A stretch of 64,000 bases of DNA, from contig NZ_BONC01000027.1 of the NCBI RefSeq assembly GCF_016862515.1, positions 1 to 64,000 on the forward strand. Direction: 5' to 3'. Of this stretch, positions 2 through 11,936 are shown piece after piece; position 1 is the first letter of the stretch; each line of letters opens with the position of its first letter. Under the pieces are notes generated by a model. The model worked only from the letters and a program-made list of their open reading frames with translations, was not told the DNA's origin and made no database searches. This DNA comes from Asanoa iriomotensis. Its GTDB lineage: Bacteria; Actinomycetota; Actinomycetes; Mycobacteriales; Micromonosporaceae. Both the position numbers and the translations under genes were made by a program.

Positions 2-2224
2 GTGGCCCGCGAGGTGGGCACCGAGGGCAAGCTCGGCGGTCAGGCCCAGGTCAAGGGCGTGTCCGGCACGTGGCGCGACCTGACCGACAACGTCAACCAG
101 CTCGCCTCGACGCTGACCACCCAGCTCCGCGCGATCGCCGGGGTGTCCACGTCCGTGACCCGCGGCGACCTGACCCAGCGCATCACCGTCGAGGCACAGG
201 GCGAGGTCGCCGACCTCAAGGACAACATCAACCAGATGATCGTCACCCTGCGCGAGACCACGAAGAAGAACGCCGAGCAGGGCTGGCTGGACTCCAACGT
301 GGCCCGGATCGGTGGCCTGCTGCAGGGCCAGCGCGACCTCGGCGAGGTTTGCCGCATGATCATGACCGAGGTGACCCCGCTGGTCGACGCCCAGCTCGGC
401 GCGTTCTTCCTGGCCGACACCGACGAGGGCGTGGTCCGGCTGCGGCTGACCGCCTCGTACGGCTACGTCGCCCGCGACCACCACGTGGTGTTCGGCCCGG
501 GCGAGGGCCTGGTCGGCCAGGCGGCGCTGTCCCGCCGCCCGATCCGGGTCGGCTCCGAGCCCACCGGCACGCTCACGCTGCGCTCCGGGATGCTCGACGC
601 CCGGCCGCGCGACCTGGTCGTGCTGCCCGTGCTGTTCGAGGGCGAGGTGCTCGGCGTCATCGAGTTCGCCTGCATCGACGCGTTCTCCGACCTGCACCTC
701 ACGTTCCTGGAGCGGCTCGTCGCCACGATCGGCGTCGCCCTCAACACCATCCAGGCCAACCGGCGCACGGAGGAGCTGCTGGCCCAGTCGCAGCGCCTCG
801 CGCACGAGCTGCAGGAACAGTCGGCCGAGCTGCAGCGCACCAACAACGAGCTGGAGGAGAAGGCCAAGCTGCTCTCCGACCAGAACATCAACATCGAGAC
901 GAAGAACCACGAGATCGAACTGGCCCGGATGGGGCTGGAGGAGAAGGCGCGACAGCTCTCGGCCGCCTCCGCCTACAAGACCGAGTTCCTCGCCAACATG
1001 AGCCACGAGCTGCGTACGCCGCTCAACTCGCTGCTCCTACTAGCCCGGCTGCTGGCCGACAACCCCGACGAGAACCTGACCGCGAAGCAGATCGAGTTCG
1101 CCCGCACCATCCACAGTGCGGGGTCCGACCTGCTGTCGCTGATCGACGACATCCTGGACCTGTCGAAGATCGAGGTCGGCCGGATGGACGTCGAGCCGAC
1201 CGAGCTGCGGTTCGACGAGATCCGGGGGTACGTCGAGCAGGCGTTCGCGCCACAGGCCGAGGACAAGGGCCTGCGCTTCCTGGTCGAGACGGGCACCGAC
1301 CTGCCCGACATGCTGATCACCGACGCGCAGCGGCTCCAGCAGATCCTGCGCAACCTGCTCTCCAACGCGGTCAAGTTCACCGATACGGGTGAGGTGGCGC
1401 TGCGCATCCAGACCGCCGAGCCGAGCCCGGACCTCGACATGCCGGCGCTGCAGGCGGCCCGCACGGTGTTCGCGTTCTCGGTCACCGACACCGGCATCGG
1501 CGTGCCCGACGACAAGCTGAGCCTGATCTTCGAGGCGTTCCAGCAGGCCGACGGCACCACGAGCCGGCGGTACGGAGGCACCGGGCTGGGCCTGTCGATC
1601 AGCCGCGACCTGGCCCGGCTGATCGGCGGCACGATCACCGTGGTCTCCGAGCCGGGCGTGGGTTCGACGTTCACGCTGCTCGTGCCGGACGTGCTCGCAC
1701 CGGACGCGGTCGTCGCGCCGATGCCGGCGCCCGCGCCGCCGCGCACCACGGTGCCGCCGCTGCTGCGCCCGACCACCGAGACCGTGCTGCAACCGAGCGC
1801 GGCCAGCCGGGCGCTGGACGGCGCCACCGTGCTGATCATCGACGACGACGTGCGCAACGTGTTCGCGCTGACCAGCGCGCTGGAGCTGCACGGCATGTCG
1901 GTGCTCTACGCCGACAACGGCGGCGACGGCGTGCGCGCGCTGGCCGAGCACCCCGAGGTCGACATCGTGCTGATGGACGCGATGATGCCCGACCAGGACG
2001 GCTACGAGACCACCCGGGTGATCCGCCGCAACCAGCACAACGCGGGCCTGCCGGTGGTGTTCCTGACCGCGAAGGCGATGCCGGGCGACCGCGAGTCCGC
2101 GATCGCGGCCGGCGCGACCGACTACATCACCAAGCCGGTCGACCTCGACGAGCTGATCGACCTGATGGCGAGCTGGGTGCACGGCACCGCCGACCGGACG
2201 AGCCAGGAAGGCGGAGCCGCTTGA
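2..2224 (+). CDS. Hybrid sensor histidine kinase, HAMP-GAF-HisKA-HATPase-REC (5' truncated by window edge)
   Basis: A cytoplasmic hybrid histidine kinase whose N-terminus lies outside the window. The visible 740 residues begin in HAMP-type repeats ([13 protein letters not shown], then [20 protein letters not shown]). A GAF domain follows at about 110-250 and a coiled coil at about 255-320. The HisKA box is [12 protein letters not shown] with phosphoacceptor His335. The HATPase domain has an N box (NAVKFT) and the DTGIGVP and GGTGLGLSI loops. A C-terminal receiver domain has predicted phospho-Asp659 ([12 protein letters not shown]) and the conserved K in TKPVD. The repeated-HAMP design resembles soluble Nik1-type kinases. 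The signal sensed is not visible. The response regulator gene starts 16 bp downstream, so the two probably act together, although that gene may also have its own promoter. Confidence 0.93.
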
Positions 2225-2228
2225 CCGT

Positions 2229-2234
2229 TAGGGT
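2229..2234 (+). promoter_or_regulatory. -10-like hexamer TAGGGT, 6 nt before the response regulator start
   Basis: TAGGGT lies between the kinase stop and the GTG at 2241, leaving only 6 nt before the start codon. This matches the leaderless-promoter pattern seen at several other genes of the window. No clear -35 element was identified, so it is a candidate only. Confidence 0.4.
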
Positions 2235-2240
2235 GGGGCA

Positions 2241-2786
2241 GTGAGTGGCACCGCGAAAGCATTGTTGGTCGACGACCGCAAGGAAAACCTCCTCGCGTTG
2301 GAGGCGATCCTGCAAGGGCTGCCGGTGAAGTCCGTGGCGGTCGAGGGCGGCGAGGCCGCGCTGAAACAGCTGCTGGTCGACGACTTCGCCGTGATCCTGC
2401 TCGACGCACAGATGCCCGACATGGACGGCTTCGAGACGGCCAACCACATCAAACGCCGCGAGCGGACCCGGCACGTGCCGATCATCTTCCTCACCGCGGC
2501 GGACCGCGACGCGCAACTCGCGCTGCGCGGTTACGCGGCGGGTGCGGTCGACTACCTGACGAAGCCGTTCGATCCCTGGGTGCTGCGCGCCAAGGTCTCG
2601 GTCTTCGTCGACCTGTGGACGAAGAGTCGTCAGCTCGCCGCGCACAGTGAGGACGTGCGCGAGCGGGACGCCCGCTACCGGTCGCTCACCGAGGCGGTCG
2701 ACGCGGCCACGGCGCTGCTGCGCGGCGAGGAGGAAGGCGCGCGCGAACGCGCGATCGCCCTTCTCGAACAGGCCCGCTGGGGTTAG
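2241..2786 (+). CDS. Response regulator with a single receiver domain and short helical tail
   Basis: Receiver-domain protein of 181 residues. The acidic pocket D11-D12, phosphoacceptor Asp55 ([15 protein letters not shown]), the conserved Thr/Ser region ([10 protein letters not shown]) and the Lys in YLTKPFDP are all present, so it should be a functional phosphoreceiver. No DNA-binding or enzymatic output domain follows. The last 50 or so residues are predicted helical and charged, so output is probably by protein-protein interaction. It lies 16 bp after the hybrid kinase, its likely partner. GTG 2241 was chosen because the receiver motif begins right after it. The stop codon (2784-2786) falls in the first bases of a large inverted repeat, so the natural C-terminus may have been altered by that element. 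Confidence 0.9.
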
Positions 2787-2949
2787 GGCGCGTCCTGCCG
2801 CTCAACGCGGCCTGCGACGGGCCAAGGCGTCGTCTGGCGGCGTCCCGGGATCACCGAGATACAACACCGGTATCCCGGCAATCCCGGGCCACCGCCAGAC
2901 GACGCCTGGACTCCGTCTCGGCTCACGTTGAGCGGCAGGACGCGCCCTA
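2784..2949. repeat. Large nested palindrome (extragenic palindromic or MITE-like element), also a possible bidirectional terminator
   Basis: The arms 2784-2807 and 2926-2949 are a perfect 24-bp inverted repeat. A second perfect pair of 16 bp lies inside (2825-2840 and 2892-2907), and a third of 8 bp (2844-2851 and 2881-2888) surrounds a 29-nt loop. The intervening stretches pair imperfectly. The outer tips supply the TAG stop codons of both convergent flanking genes. As RNA it would fold into one long hairpin from either strand, so it could end transcription in both directions. The size, symmetry and position also fit a non-autonomous mobile element. No transposase is present. Confidence 0.8.
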
Positions 2950-5382: not shown

Positions 5383-5955
5383 GTGCGCCGTCGCGGGCTC
5401 CTCGTCGGGATAGCGGTCGCCGTGTTCGCGGTGGCCGCCGTCGTCTACGTGGTCGCGGGCCGCGGCGGTGACAGTTGGAAGGACCTGTGCTCGACGTCGA
5501 GCGAGGGCTTCATCGAGTGCGCCGCAGGCAAGCGCCCGGCCGCGCCGGCGGTCACCGGCGAGCTGCTCGAAGGCGGCACCTACGACTCGGCGCGCAGCGC
5601 CGGCAAGGTCGTCGTGGTCAACTTCTGGGGATCGTGGTGCGCGCCCTGCCGGGCCGAGATCGACGACCTGGAGAACGTCTACGAGGCGACCAAGGACAAG
5701 GGCGTCGAGTTCCTCGGCATCAACATCCGCGACAGCCGGGACGCCGCGCTCGCGTTCCACAACCAGCGCGTCGCCTACCCGAGCGTGTTCGACCCGTCGA
5801 GCAAGCTCGCCCTCGGCTTCGAGATCCCGCCGAACTCCATCCCCGCCACGATCATCCTCGACCGCTCCGGGGACATCGCCTACGTGATCCGCCGCGCCGT
5901 GACCGAGGAGCAGCTCCGGCCGGTGGTCGAGCGGGTCGCCGCCGAGGCGTCCTGA
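5383..5955 (+). CDS. resA: ResA/TlpA-like extracytoplasmic thiol-disulfide oxidoreductase
   Basis: Protein of 190 residues. A short Arg-rich N-terminus and one hydrophobic segment (about residues 5-26) anchor it in the membrane with the catalytic domain outside. The thioredoxin-fold redox motif WCAPC has Cys86 and Cys89 after VVVNFWGS, and a cis-Pro loop SIPATIILD follows. In System II, ResA reduces the apocytochrome CXXCH cysteines before heme attachment, receiving electrons from CcdA, which is encoded next door. GTG 5383 follows the previous stop by 1 bp. A longer in-frame upstream reading would overlap the phosphatase gene and is unlikely. Confidence 0.9.
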   Translation: MRRRGLLVGIAVAVFAVAAVVYVVAGRGGDSWKDLCSTSSEGFIECAAGKRPAAPAVTGELLEGGTYDSARSAGKVVVVNFWGSWCAPCRAEIDDLENVYEATKDKGVEFLGINIRDSRDAALAFHNQRVAYPSVFDPSSKLALGFEIPPNSIPATIILDRSGDIAYVIRRAVTEEQLRPVVERVAAEAS

Positions 5956-6782
5956 TGGGCGAGACGTTCGGCAACCTGGCCACCAGCGGCCCGCTGCTCT
6001 TCGCGATCGCCGGCGCGGCGCTGGCCGGCCTGGTCAGCTTCCTCTCGCCGTGCGTGCTTCCGCTGGTGCCGGGCTACCTCAGCTACGTAACCGGCCTAGC
6101 CGGCTCCGAGCTTGAAAGGAACGGTCCGTTACTAACGGTTTCCGCAGAGGAACGGACCGTTCCTAACGTCGCCGCAGGCGGCGGGTTGCGGACCGCGGTG
6201 GCTGAGCGGAGCCGGGTGCTGGCCGGGACCATGCTGTTCATCATCGGCTTCACGACCGTGTTCGTGCTGGTAGCGGTCCTGGTCAGCCGGGTCGGTTGGG
6301 CGATGGTCGAGCACCGCCGGGCGCTGGAGATCGTGGTCGGCTCGCTGATCATCGTGTTGGCGCTGGCCTTCCTCGGCGTGATCCCGGGGCTGCAGCGCGA
6401 GCTGCGGATCCAGGCACTGCCCAAGGCCGGCCTGCTCGCGGCGCCGGTCTTCGGCGCGGTGTTCGCGCTCTCGTGGGTGCCCTGCGTCGGCCCGACCATG
6501 GGCTCGGTGCTGCTGCTAGCCAGCACCTCGGGGCAGGCCGACCGGGCCGTCGTGCTCGCGGTCGCGTACTGCCTCGGTCTGGGCATCCCGTTCGTGGTCT
6601 TCGGGTTGTTCTTCACCCGGCTGCTGGGGCTGTTCAAGCTGATCCGCCGCAACAGCAAATGGGTGACGCGGGTCGGCGGCGTGCTGCTGATCCTGATCGG
6701 GCTCGCGCTGGTCACCGGGGGCTGGAACAGCTTCCTGATCTGGCTGCAGACCAGCGTCGGCGTGGGAAGCATCGGGATCTGA
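5955..6782 (+). CDS. ccdA: Cytochrome c biogenesis membrane protein CcdA
   Basis: Polytopic membrane protein of 275 residues with about six transmembrane segments. It carries electrons from cytoplasmic thioredoxin to the ResA-like partner. The paired redox cysteines are present: Cys33 in FLSPCVLPLVPGY and Cys177 in SWVPCVGPTMG. ATG 5955 overlaps the previous stop by one base. Residues from about 53 to 75, in the first loop, are an in-frame insertion coming from a palindromic DNA element (6117-6164). Most CcdA proteins have a short loop there. The reading frame stays open and both cysteines are intact, so the protein is probably functional. Confidence 0.93.
   Translation: MGETFGNLATSGPLLFAIAGAALAGLVSFLSPCVLPLVPGYLSYVTGLAGSELERNGPLLTVSAEERTVPNVAAGGGLRTAVAERSRVLAGTMLFIIGFTTVFVLVAVLVSRVGWAMVEHRRALEIVVGSLIIVLALAFLGVIPGLQRELRIQALPKAGLLAAPVFGAVFALSWVPCVGPTMGSVLLLASTSGQADRAVVLAVAYCLGLGIPFVVFGLFFTRLLGLFKLIRRNSKWVTRVGGVLLILIGLALVTGGWNSFLIWLQTSVGVGSIGI
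6117..6164. repeat. Small palindromic element inserted in frame within ccdA
   Basis: A perfect 14-bp inverted repeat (6117-6130 and 6151-6164) flanks a 20-nt loop that holds its own small inverted repeat (CCGTTACTAACGG). The stretch codes for a polar linker (ERNGPLLTVSAEERTVPN) in the first CcdA loop, where family members have little sequence. Local base composition is lower in GC than the gene around it. This fits a dispersed palindromic element that settled in a permissive loop. No second copy was found in this window. Confidence 0.7.
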
Positions 6783-9389: not shown

Positions 9390-11936
9390 ATGCGTGTGGG
9401 TCGTGGCCTGCGACTGTTGGCCGTGGGTGCGTTGGTGGCGGCCGGGTCGCCGGCCATCGGTGTCAGCGCGGCGGCGGCGCCGCCGTCGAAGATCTACGTC
9501 GCCAAGTCGTGCGGCAGTGCGCCGGACGGCAGTGTGAGCAAGCCGTTCTGCGCGATTTCGCAGGCAGTCGCCGTCGCCGTGGCCGGCCAGACCATCGAGG
9601 TCGGCACCGGCTCCTACAACGAGAACGTGGTGCCCCGGTCCGGTGAGCCCGGCAAACCGATCACGATCGCCGCTGCCCCGGGCAAAGGCAATGCGGTGCA
9701 GGTCGGCCCTGGGAACGCGACCGAGGCCGTCTTCCGCCTCTCCGGAGTGCACGACGTCGTGATCGACGGGTTCAACATCGGCGGGGTGGGTCCTGCCGCC
9801 GTCCTCGTCGAAGACTCGACCGACGTCACGGTCTCCTCCGGCTGGGTCCTGTCGCCCTACGGGCCCGGAGTCGAGATCAAGGGCGCATCGAGGCGGGTGA
9901 CCATCACCGGCATGTCCATGCAGGCCCTACGCGCGCCCGCGTTCGCTGTTGGTGCGGGCGCGGCCGACACCCGCATCGCCGCCAGCAACGTGTGGTCCAA
10001 GCGGCTCGCGGGGCTCCCGGCATACGCGGCCATCAGCGTCGCGGACGCGCCGCGGACGACGGTCGTCAACAACTCGATCATGACCGACTGCCTGGCCGGC
10101 GTCGAGGTCACCGGCGCCTCGCCGGGCTTCGCCCTCGTCAACTCGATCGTGCAAACCACGTTCGGGACGCTCGGCACCTGCACCGCCCCGTCAGCACCAG
10201 ACCCGGCGAGCGTGCGGCCGGTAACCGTCGCGGCCCCGGCCACCGCCGACTCGCTCCTCGACTACAACGTGATCGACCCCAGGCTCGGTGGGCCGCTCTA
10301 CTCCTGGGCGGGCACGACCTACGCAGACCCGGGCACCTTCCACTCGGCCACCGGTCAAGCGGCGCACGACATCGGGGCCGACCCGAGGATGACCAGCAGC
10401 GGAGACTACTTCCGGAGCGGCTTCACCCTGGCTGCCGACTCGCCCGCGATCGACTCGGCGTGGGTGGCCGCGCCGGGGCTGTCCGCGACCGACCTGCGCG
10501 GCAACGCGCACGCCGACAAGCCCGACACCCCCAACAGCGGCGGTGGGTACGTCGACCGCGGCGCCGTCGAGTTGGTGCCGACTCCGTCGATCAGCTCCAC
10601 GATCGCGCGGGCGCCCGGCGGTGGCGCCTTCGAGACGATCACCACCGTGCAGCGGACGTACCAGTGGGCCACCGACGGACCGATCGGGGCCTTCATCATC
10701 AGCAACGGTCCGGAGCGGGTCGTCAACAACACCGGCATCGCGCGGTTCAGCTTCGACCGTGCCGGCCCGGCCTGCACCACGGTCCAGTTCAGCGTCGACG
10801 GGTTCCGTACGCCCTCAGCGACCATAATGGACGCACCCTGCGTGTTCCTCGGTGGCGCCTACACCGCCGTCACCCCGCAGCGGGTGCTGGACACGCGGTC
10901 CAAGATCGGCGTGCCGGGCACGACGCCGGTGGCGTCGGGCGCGGAGGCCGTGTTCGCCCTGCCCGCGGCGGCGGCGAACGCCAGCGCGGTCGTCCTCAAC
11001 GTCACGGCGACCCAGCCGACGACGGCCGGTTTCCTGAAGGTCTACGGAGACGGCGACTTCCTGCCGAACGCGGCGGACCTCCACTTCGCCTCCGGGCAGA
11101 CGATCGCGACACTGGTGACCGTGAAGGTGCGCAACGGCATGGTGCGCATCTGGAACAGCGGCCCAGGAACCACCCACCTGCTGGCCGACCTGTGGGGCAA
11201 CTACGGCAACCCCGGCAACGGTTTCCAGGCCAACACCCCCGTCCGGGTGATGGACACCCGCTCGGCGGTCGGCGTGCCCACCACCACCCCGGTCGCCGCC
11301 AACGGGAAGGTCACGTTCGACGTGTCGACCCGCGTTCCGGCGGGCACGACCGCCGTCGCGCTGAACCTGAACATCCTCAACGCGACGAAGTCTGGGCAGG
11401 TGACCGCCTATCCGGCCGGTGGCGCGGTGCCGGCCACCCCGAACGCCACCTTCGCCGCCGGCAAGAACATGACCACCATGGTGATTGCGCCGGTCGTCGG
11501 CGGAAAGGTCGCGCTCGCGCACACCGGCACCGGCACCGTCCATCTGGTCGCGGACCTGGCGGGCTCGTTCGCGCCCAGCGCCCGCGACACCTATCTGCCG
11601 ACCTCGCCGAGCCGTCGGGCGAACGCCTCGGTCGCCGCGGGACAGACGCTGCGCGTCTACGTCAGCAAGGCCGAGTGTGGGTCCGACCCCTGCACCGCAC
11701 GCACCGCGCTGGCGAACGTGACGGCGTCGGGCGCGACCCAGACCGGGTGTCTGACCGCCTACCCATACGGGCAGACCCGTCCGAACGCGTCGGTGATCAG
11801 TTACGCCGCCGGACAGACCGTGAGCAGCCTGGTCGCCGTCGGCCTGAGCCAGGACTCGTTCCTGCTCTACAACTGCGGCCGGGCGGCCGTGCAGGTGACT
11901 GTTGACCAGGCCGGCTTCTACCTGGCAGGGGCGTGA
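9390..11936 (+). CDS. Large secreted right-handed beta-helix protein with C-terminal repeat modules
   Basis: Protein of 848 residues with a Sec signal peptide (MRVGRGLRLLAVGALVAAGS, cleavage after about residue 33). An N-terminal region of parallel beta-helix type runs to about 390 (IYVAKSCGSAPDGSVSKPFCAISQAV, then rung-like VIDGFNIGG and VEDSTDVTVSSG), as in pectate-lyase-fold proteins. A linker follows. Three repeats of about 120 residues then start near 489, 610 and 733. Two carry RVLDTRS/RVMDTRS with VGVP, and all three share ...TAYP or VYGDGD followed by an NA.(I/L).(F/Y)A.G(K/Q) strand. No catalytic residues were identified. It is probably a surface-exposed or secreted binding or hydrolytic protein. 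ATG 9390 follows a GGGGAG Shine-Dalgarno. Confidence 0.8.
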   Translation: MRVGRGLRLLAVGALVAAGSPAIGVSAAAAPPSKIYVAKSCGSAPDGSVSKPFCAISQAVAVAVAGQTIEVGTGSYNENVVPRSGEPGKPITIAAAPGKGNAVQVGPGNATEAVFRLSGVHDVVIDGFNIGGVGPAAVLVEDSTDVTVSSGWVLSPYGPGVEIKGASRRVTITGMSMQALRAPAFAVGAGAADTRIAASNVWSKRLAGLPAYAAISVADAPRTTVVNNSIMTDCLAGVEVTGASPGFALVNSIVQTTFGTLGTCTAPSAPDPASVRPVTVAAPATADSLLDYNVIDPRLGGPLYSWAGTTYADPGTFHSATGQAAHDIGADPRMTSSGDYFRSGFTLAADSPAIDSAWVAAPGLSATDLRGNAHADKPDTPNSGGGYVDRGAVELVPTPSISSTIARAPGGGAFETITTVQRTYQWATDGPIGAFIISNGPERVVNNTGIARFSFDRAGPACTTVQFSVDGFRTPSATIMDAPCVFLGGAYTAVTPQRVLDTRSKIGVPGTTPVASGAEAVFALPAAAANASAVVLNVTATQPTTAGFLKVYGDGDFLPNAADLHFASGQTIATLVTVKVRNGMVRIWNSGPGTTHLLADLWGNYGNPGNGFQANTPVRVMDTRSAVGVPTTTPVAANGKVTFDVSTRVPAGTTAVALNLNILNATKSGQVTAYPAGGAVPATPNATFAAGKNMTTMVIAPVVGGKVALAHTGTGTVHLVADLAGSFAPSARDTYLPTSPSRRANASVAAGQTLRVYVSKAECGSDPCTARTALANVTASGATQTGCLTAYPYGQTRPNASVISYAAGQTVSSLVAVGLSQDSFLLYNCGRAAVQVTVDQAGFYLAGA

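Follow-up and report, generated by a model that had tools for sequence, protein, structure and literature searches.

We find that the ccdA gene of an Asanoa genome (Micromonosporaceae) carries, in its reading frame, one copy of a dispersed palindromic repeat that usually sits just after genes. The repeat therefore appears to add a stretch of amino acids to CcdA. It has a 53-bp core and belongs to a family with many copies in this genome, five of which were found in frame in other genes. Four of five Asanoa relatives have the empty ccdA site, and the fifth has the same insertion. A first-pass annotation of the sequence had described a palindromic element inserted in frame in ccdA and had proposed an actinobacterial analogue of the Rickettsia palindromic elements. 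The insertion is confirmed, and the analogy is supported as a description of what the element works like rather than as a claim of kinship. The preference for stop codons, the genome-specific palindromes, the use of the same loop in Micromonospora, and a rare TTA codon could not be seen in that annotation.

Results

The sequence analyzed, referred to here as the window, is the 64,000-nucleotide stretch at bases 1–64000 of contig 27 (NZ_BONC01000027.1) of an 8.57-Mb genome, designated G000. The nearest named ccdA loci are from Asanoa. Five further Asanoa genomes (G001–G005) were compared, of which G004, G002, and G003 are identical at this locus to A. siamensis, A. hainanensis, and A. ishikariensis, respectively. 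Features are collected in Table 1.

Table 1. Positions of the insertion in ccdA and of other features noted in this work
Sequence	Position	Strand	Feature
Window	5955..6782	+	ccdA (DsbD_TM, PF02683), 275 aa, carrying the insertion
Window	6116..6168	+	53-bp core of the dispersed palindromic element, read in frame as (E)RNGPLLTVSAEERTVPN
Window	6117..6133	+	Left arm, itself a near-palindrome (AGGAACGGTCCGTTACT)
Window	6148..6164	+	Right arm, itself a palindrome around its middle base (AGGAACGGACCGTTCCT)
Window	6123..6197	+	25 codons absent from the ccdA of G001–G004 as placed by the protein alignment; exact ends ambiguous by several bases
Window	6129..6131	+	TTA leucine codon (residue 59), supplied by the element, rare in the genes sampled
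Window	6167..6183	+	Second small GC-rich hairpin (predicted) in the inserted stretch, beginning at the end of the family core
Window	9390-11936	+	Large ORF (848 aa) that looks like a secreted repeat protein by eye, unrelated to the insertion
L231 (G004)	1265-2369		AbiEi-like gene (PF13338) between two inverted element copies
L325 (G003)	1293-2396		AbiEi-like gene (PF13338) between two inverted element copies, at a place orthologous to that in L231
L234 (G004)	1319-1370 and 2862-2913		Element copies on both sides of a gene that looks like proB, the second before a gene that looks like proA (by eye)

The inverted arms of the ccdA element are 17 nt long, 94% complementary, and 14 nt apart, 48 bp in all, whereas the first-pass annotation gave 14-bp arms. 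As RNA, the core folds at -29.5 kcal/mol (z -5.9), with 0 of 200 shuffles as low, and the ccdA frame is open through it. In G001–G004 the CcdA protein aligns as residues 1–56 followed directly by 82–275, and G004 reads GAG CTC GAG CGG AAG GTC CGC GAG where G000 has additional codons. Against this empty site the loop is 37 residues instead of 12 in G000 (25 codons, 75 bp more) and 36 in G005 (24 codons, 72 bp more). The core spans about 18 codons (54–71), of which E54 and R55 are also present in the empty loop, and the rest of the insertion is an adjoining GC-rich stretch. Three named Asanoa records also have the 12-residue loop, but they are identical at this locus to three of the four empty genomes and are not extra evidence. 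An AlphaFold model of CcdA has a mean pLDDT of 57.6, too low for a fold search, and residues 51–80 are its least confident part.

The element is a dispersed repeat. The 111 bases around it give 56 matches in G000 at E<=0.001, self included and some of them both-strand matches of one place, and these make up 40 distinct places including ccdA. The pattern AACGGWCCGTTNYYAAC gives 73 forward and 69 reverse hits (142 in all) in G000, whereas the reversed control gives 0. An ordinary variable loop with chance symmetry could be entertained, as the CcdA loop varies in length across the family; however, the 39 further places in the genome, the control, and the empty sites in relatives refute it. Copies occur as the 53-bp core, a half form, and as forms of about 80 and 135 bp with inverted ends (judged by eye). 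Rfam at gathering scores gave nothing in L231, L325, or L328, three of the loci retrieved.

The distribution of the family is patchy. In 200 Micromonosporaceae genomes, AACGGWCCGTTNYYAAC is found in four: G000 (142), G004 (68), G005 (59), and one hit in G106. A generalized pattern, AASGGNCCSTTNYTAAC, is found in 24 of 121 genomes and 8 of 44 genera of the family, with up to 227 hits, although several genomes have only one or two; its reversed control hits two genomes (G055 once, G060 five times). Seven genomes of one genus (g4) have 0, 106, 0, 7, 12, 73, and 7 hits. The reversed control of the first pattern gives 5 and 6 hits in G060 and G092, both of genus g31, which hints at a different dispersed palindrome (TTGCCWGGCAA) in that genus. 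An order-wide search found the element in 0 of 131 genomes outside the family, but its longer pattern also misses G049, a genome of another genus than Asanoa with 106 hits of the shorter one, so this search does not fix the limit of the element's distribution.

Copies lie mostly against stop codons. With a home-made codon model trained on these loci, 124 clusters fetched from G000, G004, and G005 gave 71 convergent, 22 tandem, 1 divergent, and 21 unclear contexts, and 9 were flagged as intragenic, of which 8 are elements and one is a chance 13-bp match. On 207 gene sides in G000, G003, G004, and G005, the stop codon ends before the element in 135 (median 5 bp, 116 under 10 bp), overlaps or lies in it in 69, and lies beyond it in 3. 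These inventories are partial. Elements also lie in G005 (L223) and G000 (L027) at the places matching the two copies around the proB-like gene of G004. Of ten intergenic sites whose flanks were searched in G001, G002, and G004, eight gave alignments, in which relatives hold another hairpin, the other palindrome type, or no element; no target-site duplication was resolved from these flanks, as their divergence hides the ends. At one such place (L358, the orthologue of L045), G001, which is poor in copies, has an AAGGGGCCCTT-type element where G000 has the AACGG type with a similar loop.

The ccdA copy is not the only one in a coding frame. In G000, in-frame copies were also found in genes for a MutL-like protein (PF13941), a carboxyltransferase (PF02626), asparaginase II (PF06089), dihydroorotate dehydrogenase (PyrD, PF01180), and a LuxR-type regulator (PF00196). 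The asparaginase and carboxyltransferase orthologues of the five relatives aligned have no element; the MutL element is also in G003 and G005, the PyrD element is also in G002 with a remnant in G003, and the LuxR element is also in G003 and G005. In G005, ccdA and the LuxR gene were flagged by the codon model, and the element in its MutL gene was shown by alignment. Of 22 clusters of G003 (10 convergent, 1 tandem, 1 divergent, 9 unclear), one is intragenic, at the same LuxR site, and of 22 lower-ranked clusters of G049 (8 convergent, 9 tandem, 4 unclear), one is in frame just before a tetrapyrrole methylase domain (PF00590). None of the 32 clusters in the 30 best loci of G015 and G049 is intragenic (14 convergent, 10 tandem, 8 unclear). 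Orthologues of the MutL, carboxyltransferase, asparaginase, and PyrD genes vary in length at the same places with or without the element, so the sites look tolerant; in the MutL-like gene of G001 (L262), the site holds several hundred extra bases of repetitive GC-rich sequence. The reverse frame is open in 174 of 179 non-coding cores, but because copies are alike, this observation does not show selection for coding.

The same CcdA loop is used elsewhere in the family. Of 73 named ccdA loci, 9 score 41–48 of 53 against the core and three more score 31–38, whereas the best of 60 shuffles scores 29. The nine clear copies are of the other palindrome type (AAGGG.CCCTT, not AACGG.CCGTT). These loci were found with peptides of the query, one of them inside the insert, so the share with an element may be biased upward. 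Together with the two Asanoa copies, all 14 copies examined (11 clear, 3 degenerate) have the same strand and phase and start at residue 54–60. This regularity, found although the reverse frame could also have been used, and the existence of degenerate remnants leave possible a single ancient insertion in a common ancestor of Asanoa and Micromonospora, lost many times and with its palindrome rewritten in each lineage. We regard this history as tentative, and less likely than not. The seven empty Asanoa loops (four genomes and the three named records identical to three of them) differ at one residue only, LAG[ST]ELERKVRE, which repeated independent deletions would hardly give, and the loop of Phytohabitans is short too. 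On a FastTree tree of 75 rows, presence of the element, with degenerate copies counted as present, needs at least 11 changes (L155, which lacks the loop, was left out of the tree). The near-identical empty loops favor a separate gain in Asanoa. A simple one-gain history does not fit there, however, as G000 is closest at the whole locus to the empty G004 (91.5%) and not to the filled G005 (88.5%), so gain and loss, or exchange of alleles, must have occurred. Sliding identities gave no clear signal of local recombination of ccdA between G004 and other species.

The palindromes have a dominant type in each genome. Of complete 11-mers AAxGGnCCyTT in fetched clusters, x-y is C-G in 146 of 149 (G000), 37 of 39 (G004), and 81 of 93 (G005, with 7 G-C and 5 mismatched), and G-C in 48 of 48 (G003), 32 of 32 (G015), and 60 of 60 (G049). 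Over the distinct sequences among 188 cores, columns 7, 13, 38, and 44 are 96–98% complementary where the palindromes demand it, against 51% expected. These numbers overstate the case, as the row filter favored the two pure types and the covariation is largely between genomes, so that shared ancestry inflates it. Orthologous sites are stronger evidence. Between G003 and G004 both elements at L325/L231, and between G003 and G000 the intergenic site L317/L036 and the coding LuxR site L327/L037, differ by the compensating change on both arms of each palindrome. Against this, at the first of these intergenic sites G005 (L209) has one mismatched palindrome, the first MutL palindrome of G003 is mixed, the MutL copy of G005 is of the AAGGG type, and another G005 site (L225) holds both types. 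The switching is thus real but incomplete.

The element also supplies a rare codon. TTA accounts for 9 of 83,688 codons in 235 predicted genes of G000, and four of the nine fall in element copies, one of them across the edge, although the loci were chosen for elements and this share is inflated. Among 72 named ccdA genes (L155 again left out), 0 of 60 without an element have a TTA in the first 250 codons, whereas 8 of 12 with one (9 clear, 3 degenerate) have exactly one, in the element. One could imagine that the insertion is regulatory and adaptive, giving ccdA a TTA codon and an mRNA hairpin so that cytochrome c maturation depends on the UUA-reading tRNA. We consider such a role unlikely and unsupported: the TTA follows from the sequence of the element and needs no selection, one clear copy (L149) and the three degenerate ones lack it, and the developmental use of this codon may not extend beyond Streptomycineae (PMC4255298).

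No mobilizing enzyme was found. PF01797 has no match in five of six Asanoa genomes, G000 included, and G003 has one match over the cut-off with a stop inside. Mobilization as REP elements by a RAYT (Y1 transposase), which the short palindromes, gene-end location, and high copy number might suggest, is thus very unlikely on the basis of this profile. The reading frame of the AbiEi-like gene between two inverted copies in G003 and G004 ends inside the element (in G004 the last residues read EVLTTDRSYAKSVNNGPLLP). However, its flanks proved orthologous, and the other four genomes have only weak matches, about 25–34% identity apart from one 27-residue stretch, and we did not retain it as an autonomous element.

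Discussion

We favor, with reasonable confidence, the view that the ccdA feature is one copy of a terminator-like, REP/MITE-like repeat built of two to four short palindromes, present in a patchy set of Micromonosporaceae and occasionally kept as an in-frame insertion. The positions of the copies, commonly between convergent genes, suggest that intergenic copies act as bidirectional terminator-like or 3'-end-protecting hairpins, a role inferred from sequence alone, and by eye the consensus sequences have no run of T after the hairpin. The minority of copies in coding frames lie in stretches of proteins that vary in length between species, and we infer that they are insertions of the same element, kept because the frame stays open and the loop tolerates the extra residues.

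The coordinated difference of palindrome type at orthologous sites, one of them clearly coding, asks for an agent not yet named and gives a direct way to look for it. It is conceivable, although we think it unlikely, that each genome imposes its own palindrome "dialect" (AACGG.CCGTT or AAGGG.CCCTT) on its copies through a trans-acting sequence-specific system, such as a recombinase, a nuclease, a DNA-binding protein, or conversion between copies, strongly enough to rewrite copies inside protein-coding genes and to change the encoded peptide in step.

In-frame palindromic repeats are reported from few bacteria, and we saw no report of the present family in the open-licence papers searched. The family adds free-living, high-GC actinomycetes with large genomes, with empty and filled orthologues in related species, so that gain, loss, and tolerance of such insertions can be followed. 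It also shows how a repeat can place rare TTA codons in core genes.

The Rickettsia palindromic elements (RPE) and their Wolbachia counterparts are likewise dispersed palindromic repeats found between genes and inserted in frame in unrelated conserved genes, with a peptide read from an open frame (PMC2229807, PMC10969869). The present family is from another phylum and a high-GC genome, measures about 53–135 bp against 105–146 bp quoted for RPE, is settled mainly within a few bases of stop codons, and has palindromes of a genome-specific type. REP elements with RAYT are also short palindromes at gene ends in high copy number, but here the PF01797 search gave no match in five of six genomes and copies lie in frame in genes. 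REPs carry GTAG or CGTC tags (PMC3733652); by eye, neither is in the Asanoa consensus, though the G049 consensus holds GGTAGAGG. MITEs that form in-frame fusions (ERIC and the 107-bp Correia-related repeat) are small repeats, some with inverted ends, found in frame in genes (PMC2229807), whereas for the present family no target duplication was resolved at the diverged sites aligned and, without a systematic search, no parent insertion sequence was found. SPRITE, the rho-independent-terminator-like element of Streptococcus pneumoniae, is also a dispersed repeat resembling a terminator (PMC10969869); the present consensus has no T-run, and the present family also enters coding frames.
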